NCBI GenBank assembly: GCA_000697355.1 | Contig: JNEN01000882.1 | Span: 1 to 64,000 of the forward strand | Direction of reading: 5' to 3' | Length of the DNA: 64,000 nt | Origin: Syncephalastrum monosporum B8922 | Lineage: Eukaryota > Mucoromycota > Mucoromycetes > Mucorales > Syncephalastraceae | In this document: piece by piece, positions 7,103 to 58,138 of the stretch | Layout: every line of letters begins with the position of its first letter | Numbering within the stretch: position 1 is the stretch's first letter | Position numbers and translations under genes: made by a program | The notes under the pieces: generated by a model | The model's database searches: none | The model's input: only the letters and a program-made list of their open reading frames with translations | What the model was told of the DNA's origin: nothing

Positions 7103-8167
7103 TCACCAATCCAACAGGGTCTTGTTAACGACGGTATTGCCACACGGCTGAGGGGAGCCGGCCTCAAAGATACCGCGGACGAGATCGAGCAAGACACGGT
7201 TCTGACGCAGGGTCTGTTGCACGACGTCGACACAATGGCAGGGCGTGACGCGTCCGTACCAGATCGCGCGGTGGCCATGGTGGGTATAGATGACCATGTT
7301 GCCCGCGAACGCGTGTCCGCCCAAGTGGCTGACAAGCGTCACTGCCGTGTCATCGAGAGCGCCGTCCTCCTGGCCTTGCTCCCAGCAGGCGCTACGGCCC
7401 TGTTTGATCGCGTCCGTCAACGCGGTCTGCAGCATGGGGCCGACCGTGCCGCAGCGACGGTCCTTGCGTCCGTGACCGCATACCATGATGAGAGTGCGGT
7501 AAGGCGACGGGTGCACGTTAAAGTGGCTCGTCCCCCGCCCAAAGCAAAAGTCAACGAGTGGCCCCGCACGCCGCCGTGTGACGTTCGCGATGACCACGTT
7601 GTCTGGCAACAGAAGCACGTCTAAACTGCCTCGCTGCCTCGAGAACGGGGACGCCAATGCCGCGCACGTCACCAAAACCCGGAACGGTTCTTTTTTCTTG
7701 TTTCCATGCACCGCGGGAGCCTTCCCTGTGTGGTTTTCCTTGGCAGCGTCTGCCTCCTCCGGCGCCTCTTTCTCTTGGGGCTGGGCCACGTGGAAGGCCG
7801 CCTCCGGGGCCCTGTGCAACGATCCCTTCCTCTCGTGAATCGCCTCAATGAGGGCCTGCGCGACGCCTTCGTCGTCTTCGATATGCGCTGGCCAGTCTGT
7901 CTTGCCTGTGAGGAGCACCAGGTGGACGGTGTAGGTGGGGACGGTGTTGCTTAAAGGGCGTGTCTGATCAATGTTGAGATTCGACGGCACGGCCGGATGC
8001 TGTGAGCAAGGTTGGGTGCATGCGCGTTCGCAGGTGGTCTGGATGGGTGGGAGCGGTTCGCTTGCAGCTAAGGGCGGAAGGCACGGGGCAGAGCACACTG
8101 CACTGGGGCAACACTCACTGCTCGGGGAGCTATACAAGCTATTGACGCACTTTGATAGCCACTCCAT
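7103..8167 (-). CDS. Apd1/Aim32-family 2Fe-2S thioredoxin-like protein (sucrase/ferredoxin-like)
   Basis: Single exon, 354 codons plus stop, ATG at 8167. The C-terminal half carries the family signature: a Cys pair with eight residues between them (VCGHGRKDRRCG, around residues 228-239), then a His pair (HLGGHAFAGN, HxxxH). In yeast Apd1 these two Cys and two His ligate a 2Fe-2S cluster in a thioredoxin-like ferredoxin fold. All four are present here. The family is linked to redox homeostasis; Aim32 is mitochondrial and Apd1 cytosolic. The N-terminal 60 residues are unusually Cys-rich (CC, CxxxC, CxxxCxxxC) and do not resemble a mitochondrial presequence. A charged, low-complexity linker lies near residues 125-160. 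Confidence 0.85.
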   Translation of the reverse strand: MEWLSKCVNSLYSSPSSECCPSAVCSAPCLPPLAASEPLPPIQTTCERACTQPCSQHPAVPSNLNIDQTRPLSNTVPTYTVHLVLLTGKTDWPAHIEDDEGVAQALIEAIHERKGSLHRAPEAAFHVAQPQEKEAPEEADAAKENHTGKAPAVHGNKKKEPFRVLVTCAALASPFSRQRGSLDVLLLPDNVVIANVTRRRAGPLVDFCFGRGTSHFNVHPSPYRTLIMVCGHGRKDRRCGTVGPMLQTALTDAIKQGRSACWEQGQEDGALDDTAVTLVSHLGGHAFAGNMVIYTHHGHRAIWYGRVTPCHCVDVVQQTLRQNRVLLDLVRGIFEAGSPQPCGNTVVNKTLLDW

Positions 8168-55154: not shown

Positions 55155-55304
55155 ATGCAGATATTGCCTGAAATACAGCTTGAAATTTTCTCAAGAGCTT
55201 TCTTTCCACTCTACCTTGTTCGCGTCATATGCAAACAGAAACACCTCAAAACCCGCACAAATCCTGTGACATACCCGCATCATCTAAAGCACCATATGTG
55301 CTGA
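55155..55304 (+). other. Overlapping upstream frame with an F-box-like sequence
   Basis: A 49-codon frame from an ATG at 55155 encodes LPEIQLEIFSRAF, then YLVRVICKQK, which fits the F-box pattern LPxEIxxxIFSxL...VxxVCKxW apart from the missing Trp. It overlaps the start of the LAGLIDADG/zinc-finger frame in a different phase. I found no splice pair that would join it in frame to that gene. It may be a leader frame, the start of a lost gene or chance. Confidence 0.35.
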
Positions 55305-58138
55305 TTTGCAGTACAAAAAAGAGCAACAGTACTGGCAAAAAGAATATCGATACCTTTGGAATCAAGCAACCACTAGAGGATACATCCCAATCTGAGAACG
55401 AGGTATCGAGTGGCCCGGTCAGTCACCATGTCAAGCCAAAGACAGAAAAAAGCCCAAGTCCGGGCAATACAGGACCAGCACACCATCATCCTTCCATTTC
55501 CAACGGCGCGTGCGATACAATAGTGCCCAGTTGTAAACAATCCGTCAGCACCACCAAAATCAAAAAGGAGACCCACGACGCAAACTCCGCAGCTGCAGTT
55601 CTTTTACACTCAGAACTGGAGCAGCATGAATCCAAAAAAGGAACGGCACTCAGTGCTCCAAAGAATCAAGAACCATCAGCAAAGACGCCGAACGATATAA
55701 AATCTAAATATAATGTCGATGGAGAATGGAGGGACAACTATCTGCCGCCAGGGTTCATCAACGACGAAACCGATCCGATGCGCTACTTTTTTATTGGTTT
55801 TTACGTCGGCGACGGCATCTACCTAACAAAACGCCCAGGATTCGCCATAAGAGTCAAAGCATGCCAGTTTATGGACCTATACAACCTACTTCTTCGCTGT
55901 GGTGTTCCCAATCCCCAACTCACGTAAGTCCGGATAGTGCACCTTGCAACTGCTTTACCGACTTTGATCATGATCAGCTTCTATAAAATGCGAGGGATCT
56001 CCAAGAAATACAATGCTGGGCATCTTGGTACCGTGAGCTGGGGTTACAGTAATCAGCACGAAAACTGTCTGTCCCTTGTTGATCATGGCCTACCCTCGAG
56101 TAAAACGAAATATTCAGATCCAGAACTGCTCAAGAGCTTTCTGCCCAACCAAAATGGGAAACAACGCGGCGATTTCTTCCTGCTTTTCATGCTCGGATAT
56201 CTCATGGCAGACGGAAGCGTTGAAACGGAACATGCTGGAAATCAACAGCAACCCATGATACGTTATCAATACGCGCGAATGTACGCAGTCGATGCTAACC
56301 TCTTGAAATGGATGTGCAGTGAGTTGATATCCCTCGGGTGTGATTCAATACATCTGGGAACAGATTTATGCAGGGCAAAGACAAACAAGGAAGAGAGCCG
56401 GAACAGTGCTACCATAGACTATAAAAGGGTCCTAAATTATCTCACAATCAACAAGTCGGTGGCGAACTTTACTGTGTTACGTCGCAGCATCGAACTCATG
56501 GAGAAACACTCTATACCGCTGAATGGAAAGATACAGCTTCTCAAGAAAATCTGCCAAAGCGACGGCCATCTGCCGCCAAGGCTATATCCCCCAAGGAGTC
56601 TTTCATTCCACCAGTATATACGGCACGTAATACCCGATCGGGCTGCGTGTGTTATCGCACAGTAAGTGTACGAATTGACAGATATAAATACATACCTGAT
56701 ATATCCATCTCGAATCAAAGAGACCTCTACGATTTCAATGTATTTTTTTTAAATAACCTATTATCTGCCGTCGGCTTCCAAGAGGAGAGCTTGGAAAGTG
56801 TATATGATTTTGATCTGGCTCGTTTCACTCTCTTCATAAGAGGACTTAAAAAGCAAGCCCATCGATCTGCTCTCCAAGAGTTACTACTCCGGTATTATCA
56901 CGTATGTGAGCTTCGAATTACCCAAGGCCCTATATTCGATTATCGGTACAAAGAGGTGAAGTATTTTATTGCGAATTATATAGTATGCGCGTATATCTAA
57001 CGTATTATACTAGCCACCATATCAGCGAGTCTGCTGCAGTGAGTGTCATAAGTTCTATCAAAGATATTATTTGAGACACCATATGCTGCGGGTACACAAT
57101 AAGGTTAATATACAATCTTTGCTGAGCAGCCTATAGTCAGAAGATATCGATAGTCGTTTAGATTCTCAATTTTTTTCTTGTTTTAGGGCGAGATTTTGAG
57201 GTGTCGTTACCAAGACTGTGATCAACAATTTACATATTTCGATAAACGAAGGAAACACTATGTTATGGCACACTGTACCTCTCAAGAAGAAGAGAAGGTA
57301 TGCACGCATGTGAACAGCTGCATTCTAGTACAAGATAACTATGTGCGCCTGACTCGATAAGGCTATCTAGCTTTCCCTCACTTGCCAAGTGGAAGGATGT
57401 AAAGCAAATCCCTTCAGAGCAAGAACTACGTTGGAAAGGCATATTCGTAGCTACCACACGAGCCTACCAGTAGTAAGATGGTTTGATTATTAAAGCCGTA
57501 CGCGTATCAGAAGCTGACTCATATGCCTTTGACAAAAAGCGAGAAAATCTCAGGTGTTCATTTCAGGGTTGTACAGCAGAATTTAGGACACATGCGGGTC
57601 TAAAGACACATCAAAACACCCATCCAGCCCTACCAAAAGTTCGCTCTAGCTCTGTTACATGCTGGTATACGAAGATTCTAACAAAACCATGGCAGATATT
57701 ATTGCCTGTAGGACCGTTACTCTGTGGGTTTGACGGATGCAGTCGGACGTACCAGCTCTATTCCAGCTACAAGAAGCATGTAGAGAGAAAACACCCAGCA
57801 TTTGTCGTAAGTGAAACAACTTCATGTCTGCATACCCTTGGCATCTATGTGACACTATATCTTTGCTATGTATACTGCAAATTCGAAAGAAAATATGTCA
57901 GACCTGCACTACCTTCAAGTACGTAGACGACAAAGAGCTCCAGGTCCATCGTAGGCGCTGCGACGATCCTTCTGTATGTTAGCGACGTATTCCATGTATA
58001 CTTATTTTCATGCAAAACTCTCATCGCTTGTGTGTTTAACTTTAGATATATCACTACAAGTGCGATTACCCTGGATGTGAAAAAAAATATCGCAGAAAAA
58101 CTTCCGTGTACAGACACAAGAAGAATACGCATCAGTAG
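55229..58138 (+). CDS. Two-motif LAGLIDADG-type endonuclease-like protein with seven C-terminal zinc fingers (784 aa)
   Basis: Nine exons: 55229-55923, 55978-56661, 56721-56955, 57014-57103, 57187-57297, 57371-57480, 57554-57806, 57890-57973, 58046-58138; the sum closes in frame. Residues 1-165 are disordered with Lys-rich patches. Motif 1 is FFIGFYVGDG (Asp195), motif 2 LLFMLGYLMADG (Asp310). Both keep the acidic residue that binds metal, and the 115-residue spacing fits monomeric LAGLIDADG enzymes such as the PI-SceI intein and yeast HO. From residue 540 follow seven finger units: CSEC-type, CRYQDC, CQVEGC, CSFQGC, CGFDGC, CQTC (ending in Cys) and CDYPGC, most C-x4-C-x12-H-x4-H. Several fingers have their own exon. 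A site-specific DNA-cleaving or DNA-binding role is inferred. The exon 6/7 join (57480/57554) uses a weak GTTTGA donor but a good CTGAC branch site and CAG acceptor. Confidence 0.75.

Follow-up and report, generated by a model that had tools for sequence, protein, structure and literature searches.

Did a homing-type nuclease enter the nuclear genome of a mucoralean fungus and become joined to a zinc finger array there? The question is raised by a gene of Syncephalastrum monosporum B8922 (Mucorales) in a 64,000-nucleotide stretch of contig JNEN01000882.1 (positions 1 to 64,000, here called the window), the product of which carries two LAGLIDADG motifs followed by C2H2-type fingers. Our analysis suggests that the gene may best be read as an independently captured homing-type nuclease that now belongs to a re-targetable DNA-binding family, of which the window copy may still cut. 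We regard the window gene as a candidate natural zinc-finger nuclease with an origin separate from that of yeast HO. Taken as a whole, a captured nuclease with a C2H2 array, of which most copies no longer cut and the window copy likely does, appears reasonably probable to us.

Results and Discussion

A LAGLIDADG domain joined to a C2H2 array

Hand splicing of the window gene (55229..58138, plus strand) gives nine exons and eight GT-AG introns of 54-83 bp, joined into one open frame of 785 aa. An earlier interpretation made from the bare letters (the sequence-only reading) had described a nine-exon nuclear gene with one frame and two motifs 115 residues apart, both with their Asp and followed by seven C2H2-type fingers. 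This description is borne out by the spliced product: Asp195 and Asp310 lie 115 positions from each other, and seven C2H2-type fingers lie C-terminally, the sixth ending in Cys and not His. Each finger occupies its own exon, save for exon 7 with two, and introns 3-8 are in phase 0 throughout. At E <= 0.01 the fingers match 25 different sequences of solved structure, all of which, by name, we take to be C2H2 zinc finger proteins (GLI, TFIIIA, WT1, YY1, AEBP2 and others). The Pfam zf-C2H2 profile reaches E 4.8e-5 in 2 stretches with 24.0 bits, slightly below the cut-off of 25.2.

The LAGLIDADG fold of the domain, which the sequence-only reading had proposed to examine by structure prediction, is shown by structure comparison of predicted models, and profile matches point the same way. 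The model of P0001, a relative from Syncephalastrum racemosum, shows both alpha-beta-beta-alpha-beta-beta-alpha units, and the window's own model shows the second unit. Bacterial WhiA is one of the structural matches of the models. When window residues 1-460 were scanned with Pfam at E <= 10, LAGLIDADG_3 was the sole family recovered and no Hint/intein domain was found, although a decayed Hint remnant is possible. In the P0001 model two N-terminal strands are present with a predicted local distance difference test score (pLDDT) < 40, and several intein rows of VIA begin at model residues 4-11. A comparison with PHROGs gave just three families without names (E 0.09-0.34, one member each).

Between domain and fingers lies a helical linker of about 113 residues (end of exon 2 plus exon 3) with 14 invariant columns across seven family members. 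No Pfam match was obtained for this part before the fingers. A covalent cytochrome trimer (E 0.0035) was dropped as a linker relative, as no single stretch passed alone, and three further matches (E 0.5-0.7) were dropped as unconvincing.

A family with a common gene structure

With the domain as query, the 27.5-Mb genome (198 contigs) yielded six further copies with an open LAGLIDADG region, two on contig C164 (at 107k and 239k) and one each on C24, C146, C136 and C135. A decayed copy on C187 has five TGA and two TAG codons over 179 positions of the query, and no fingers could be recognised in the 7.5 kb inspected; its spliced alignment was mostly untrustworthy and it was left out of the alignments, the tree and the Asp counts. 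The sequence-only reading, correct in what it observed, had missed the family, which numbers at least seven copies besides the decayed one.

On spliced alignment all six open paralogues show this layout again, with the linker and then finger patterns in 6/6. Intron 1, within the LAGLIDADG core, lies in phase 2 at residue 232 (233 in the C136 copy) and intron 2, shortly beyond the core, in phase 2 at residue 460 in 7/7 members; one family intron has a GC donor. Judged from sequence, the recurrence of these introns and of C-terminal fingers across the family is a gene structure beyond chance. At the finger end, the alignment of some paralogue models runs through frameshifts or stops, and intactness to the C-terminus may vary.

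The same introns bear on whether the locus is in fact two adjacent genes, one for a protein that has the LAGLIDADG domain alone and stops at intron 2, the other for the fingers. P0001, as annotated at the National Center for Biotechnology Information (NCBI), stops at the residue where intron 2 starts, and retention of intron 2 leads to a stop. However, such an end is expected of a missed intron because reading through a GTRAGT donor in phase 2 invariably produces a stop, and with intron 2 identical in place and phase in all seven members, and linker and fingers coming next in every open paralogue, we consider two genes very improbable.

Protein searches covered 5.8 billion sequences and required shared five-residue words, so that distant relatives in other Mucorales could escape them. 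The single-sequence search gave 2205 candidates, none at E <= 1; profile searches retained 4/1626 and 5/5710 candidates at E <= 10. The profile relatives are P0001 and pieces on contigs of 11.8 and 13.1 kb: P0002, P0004 and P0005 share 91-94% identity with the window gene, while the C135 copy is matched at 96% by P0003 and C164:239k at 78% by P0001. A ten-row tree joins the window gene and its orthologue with full support and places the window gene loosely among the C164, C24 and C146 copies, while the C136 and C135 copies sit on long branches in unsure positions. Among the papers listed in searches of the open-licence PubMed Central (PMC) literature there was none on this family.

Loss of catalytic residues in most copies

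Both motifs keep their structural glycines without exception in the seven-member alignment. The catalytic columns (motif 1/motif 2) read D/D in the window copy and its orthologue, D/N in C164:107k, S/S in C24, S/N in C164:239k and P0001, K/N in C146, A/A in C136 and R/N in C135; P0003 has no residue at motif 1 and N at motif 2. Among these family copies and relatives, both Asp are kept just in the window copy and its orthologue. The sequence-only reading had looked to homologues for conservation of the two Asp, which holds for the orthologue but fails in all six open paralogues, five having neither Asp and C164:107k being without the second. The columns that we presume to hold the active-site Lys, going by PI-SceI anatomy, are K/K in the window copy and orthologue; among the paralogues the first K is found in 1/6 and the second in 4/6.

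With the catalytic Asp gone from most copies, nuclease activity cannot be assumed family-wide, and since the fold is kept where the Asp is gone, most paralogues are most likely non-cutting. The fold is kept, and catalysis has probably been lost from the majority of copies. Having both Asp intact, the window copy is the one that may have retained cleavage. Catalytic-residue loss is common in LAGLIDADG proteins: PMC10085805 cites it for 7/14 fission-yeast mitochondrial enzymes and reports it for 3/3 of S. osmophilus.

Might all copies, the window one included, be domesticated non-cutting DNA-binding regulators in which the two Asp are a leftover? The losses in the six paralogues fit this explanation, and so does the presence of WhiA among the structural matches. 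Moreover, C164:239k and its orthologue in S. racemosum have S and N alike, and a dead copy therefore persists across two genomes as different as their 78% identity implies. In contrast, both Asp and both Lys occur together just in the window lineage (two orthologues), where a neutral leftover Asp would be expected to decay as it did in the paralogues. We consider the regulator explanation a realistic one that is nonetheless doubtful.

Finger duplication and change in the C146 copy

In the C146 copy a 386-bp tandem unit with two finger exons is repeated 5.3 times, and 12 of the 13 finger patterns alternate between two types. Finger diversity was compared over six copies of each type, with positions -1, 2, 3 and 6 as DNA contacts. 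The nonsynonymous proportion (pN) at contacts is 0.55 and 0.52 in the two types, as opposed to 0.18 and 0.22 outside the helix positions, and its ratio to the synonymous proportion (pN/pS) is 1.26 and 0.97 as opposed to 0.36 and 0.46; for the wider helix set pN/pS is 1.36 and 0.58. Among 4845 four-position sets (metal ligands excluded) the contact pN ranks 56 and 92. These values are evidence that the C146 fingers may be changing their DNA specificity, short of proof of positive selection because tandem copies are non-independent and pS is high.

PRDM9 and KRAB zinc fingers are fast-evolving C2H2 arrays with their fingers in one long exon. The C146 copy resembles them in tandem finger duplication and in change focused on DNA contacts; the window family differs from them in that their fingers share one long exon and are attached to an unrelated partner domain.

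Points against a retained nuclease

Several observations weigh against a captured nuclease that still cuts in the window copy. Single-sequence Pfam LAGLIDADG scores are under the cut-off and 5/7 family members have no LAGLIDADG match in Pfam at all. Model confidence is modest (mean pLDDT 54 and 52, from 6 and 5 rows), the better of the two models is that of a relative that has neither Asp, and Foldseek with the window's own model gave no match at E <= 0.001. That the orthologue retains Asp and Lys carries little weight because the two are about 92% identical. Changed residues number 26/300 in the nuclease part versus 8/160 in the N-terminus (Fisher P 0.19), and with at least as much change as the N-terminus the domain gives no evidence of special constraint. 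Asn stands at motif 2 in 4/6 paralogues, and the family ancestor may already have been without Asp310. Finally, the second C146 finger type shows barely any rise over the recognition helix as a whole (pN/pS 0.58 vs 0.46). The low Pfam scores would also suit a motif pair that arose by chance in a domain of another fold. Yet fold comparisons and profile matches disfavour this, and we find it scarcely credible.

Flanking regions and the selfish element scenario

The sequence-only reading had offered a selfish element as one possible role and a mating-type or rearrangement factor as another, and the latter gained no support here. A selfish element, if WHO-like, would cut a target gene and copy itself alongside, the paralogues being failed or decaying copies. 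The many scattered copies, one of them broken by seven stops, would agree with this, as would repeats lying less than 10 kb from several copies. Active sites are partly intact and partly degenerate and the distribution is narrow, as in the WHO degeneration cycle outlined in PMC7282813. The window flanks, however, have no match elsewhere in the genome and no duplicated target fragment was seen in them; the copies are multi-exon, and with the open copies just 26-48% identical to the window copy there was no recent burst. A selfish role at present is not borne out for the window gene, a WHO-like life being the less likely one, and we judge the scenario unlikely.

For the other copies, flanks were compared with one another and with the window. 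Two stretches common to different copies are repeats also present elsewhere in the genome, which rules them out as element boundaries common to the family. One, between the C135 copy and another copy, has 7 genome matches, self included; the other, 1.7 kb in the flanks of C164:239k and C136, likewise has 7 including itself, two of them at contig starts. The copies of this repeat, up to 1.7 kb long, are 97-99% identical. A dispersed repeat of about 0.6 kb, with copies 71-82% identical to the query, is found upstream of two family copies, and an inverted repeat (484 bp, 87% identical) upstream of C164:107k (Table 1).

Pfam matched 5/18 flank frames (RhoGAP, RRM, HOOK, NGP1NT/GTPase, GATA), and across these 18 frames plus the two window neighbours no single target gene was common to the copies. 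A RhoGAP domain lies about 9 kb from C164:107k and another beside the window gene, at a different distance and with different neighbours. Frame by frame, the flanks have a few other protein families in common.

Comparison with known systems

HO and WHO were given in 2020 as the only intein-zinc finger fusions known in an eLife paper (PMC7282813), which describes their fingers as Cys-X-X-Cys and GATA-like, in line with the earlier claim that the HO zinc region is not of the C2H2-array type. The window gene shares with HO and WHO the plan of a free-standing LAGLIDADG nuclease domain that precedes a zinc-binding region at the C-terminus, and WHO is also present in multiple copies with degeneration (PMC7282813), as is the Syncephalastrum family. 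Unlike HO and WHO, the window gene has no intein-like region by Pfam (a decayed remnant being possible), carries seven C2H2-type fingers, consists of nine exons and resides in Mucorales rather than a budding yeast. Because the finger type differs, the window family is not a member of HO, though HO-like in outline.

With PI-PfuI, I-Tsp061I, I-DmoI, PI-SceI and I-CreI the domain has in common the double-motif fold (I-CreI with one motif per chain) and, in the window copy, the catalytic Asp position at motif 2. These enzymes sit in inteins or self-splicing introns, whereas the window gene stands by itself in the nuclear genome and carries fingers. WhiA (DUF199) is a bacterial transcription factor in which the LAGLIDADG fold, next to a helix-turn-helix partner domain, is used in regulation without cutting; it provides a structural match with reuse of the fold, but it is bacterial, and the window family has zinc fingers. 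Pfam LAGLIDADG_3, Hom_end and LAGLIDADG_1 gave no match in the S. monosporum genome, a weak absence of an intein or other LAGLIDADG source because the LAGLIDADG_3 search misses the family too. The interpretation in the sequence-only reading is partly supported. Of the independent capture that it suggested, a real LAGLIDADG domain with C2H2 fingers and no sequence sign of HO/VDE descent stand; the capture itself we infer.

We propose that a double-motif LAGLIDADG homing endonuclease was captured and joined via the helical linker to a C2H2 array made mostly of one-finger phase-0 exons. Recruitment to a DNA sequence would fall to the fingers, with the LAGLIDADG saddle binding the adjoining DNA. 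Most paralogues would be non-cutting DNA-binding proteins, re-targeted by finger duplication and change, while the window copy, which has kept both metal-binding Asp and two Lys at the positions expected for this fold, would probably still make a site-specific double-strand break, as HO does. That the whole constitutes an independently evolved natural zinc-finger meganuclease family, with an active nuclease guided by a modular array of one finger per exon that tandem exon duplication enlarges and re-targets, and with dead sisters serving as DNA-binding factors, is quite possible, though we would not count on it; the HO-like plan would then have arisen a second time and could serve programmed DNA cleavage or homing. 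If this is a second case, in Mucorales and with another finger type, targeting modules would have captured homing-type nucleases more than once. The series from two Asp to none within one genome would depict a nuclease turning into a DNA-binding protein, and the family might serve as a natural model of finger arrays re-targeting a cutting domain.

Gene structure and neighbouring genes

Table 1. Coordinates of the window gene (positions in the window) and of family and repeat features on other sequences.
Feature	Position	Strand	Remark
Exon 1	55229..55923	+	probably disordered N-terminus, then first LAGLIDADG half; frame P0004 93.5% over 232 residues
Motif 1 GFYVGDG	55796..55816	+	Asp195 codon 55811-55813
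Intron 1	55924..55977	+	54 bp, phase 2; place kept in 7/7 family members (one residue off in the C136 copy)
Exon 2	55978..56661	+	rest of first half, second LAGLIDADG half, linker start; orthologue P0002 91.3%
Motif 2 LGYLMADG	56192..56215	+	Asp310 codon 56210-56212; I-CreI and I-Tsp061I motif helices align here
Intron 2	56662..56720	+	59 bp, phase 2; place kept in 7/7 family members
Exon 3	56721..56955	+	conserved helical linker
Exon 4	57014..57103	+	finger 1
Exon 5	57187..57297	+	finger 2
Exon 6	57371..57469	+	finger 3; donor three bases further (exon end 57472) likewise in frame
Exon 7	57540..57806	+	fingers 4 and 5
Exon 8	57890..57973	+	finger 6, C2HC
Exon 9	58046..58138	+	finger 7 and stop codon
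Decayed copy	about C187:174953-175516 (L026)		
Tandem finger unit, C146 copy	L024:5294-7313		386 bp
Inverted repeat	L028:6682-7160 and 7510-7988		upstream of C164:107k copy
Dispersed repeat, about 0.6 kb	L021:1109-1722; C135:79100-79671		also C122, C188, C60
Repeat, up to 1.7 kb	C164:244582-246246; C136:1-1661; C112:96-1432; C132:382836-383114		

By composition, the first 160 residues or so appear disordered, and the start codon is uncertain because the orthologous frame P0004 has an earlier in-frame Met. The window gene is free-standing and lies in neither an intein nor a self-splicing intron of a host gene. Its upstream neighbour is a RhoGAP gene (E 8.6e-20) and its downstream neighbour CRT10 (E 2.8e-8), as the sequence-only reading had named them. 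Elsewhere in the window, 14024-15196 matches Abp2 (ARS binding protein 2; Pfam E 2.4e-7).
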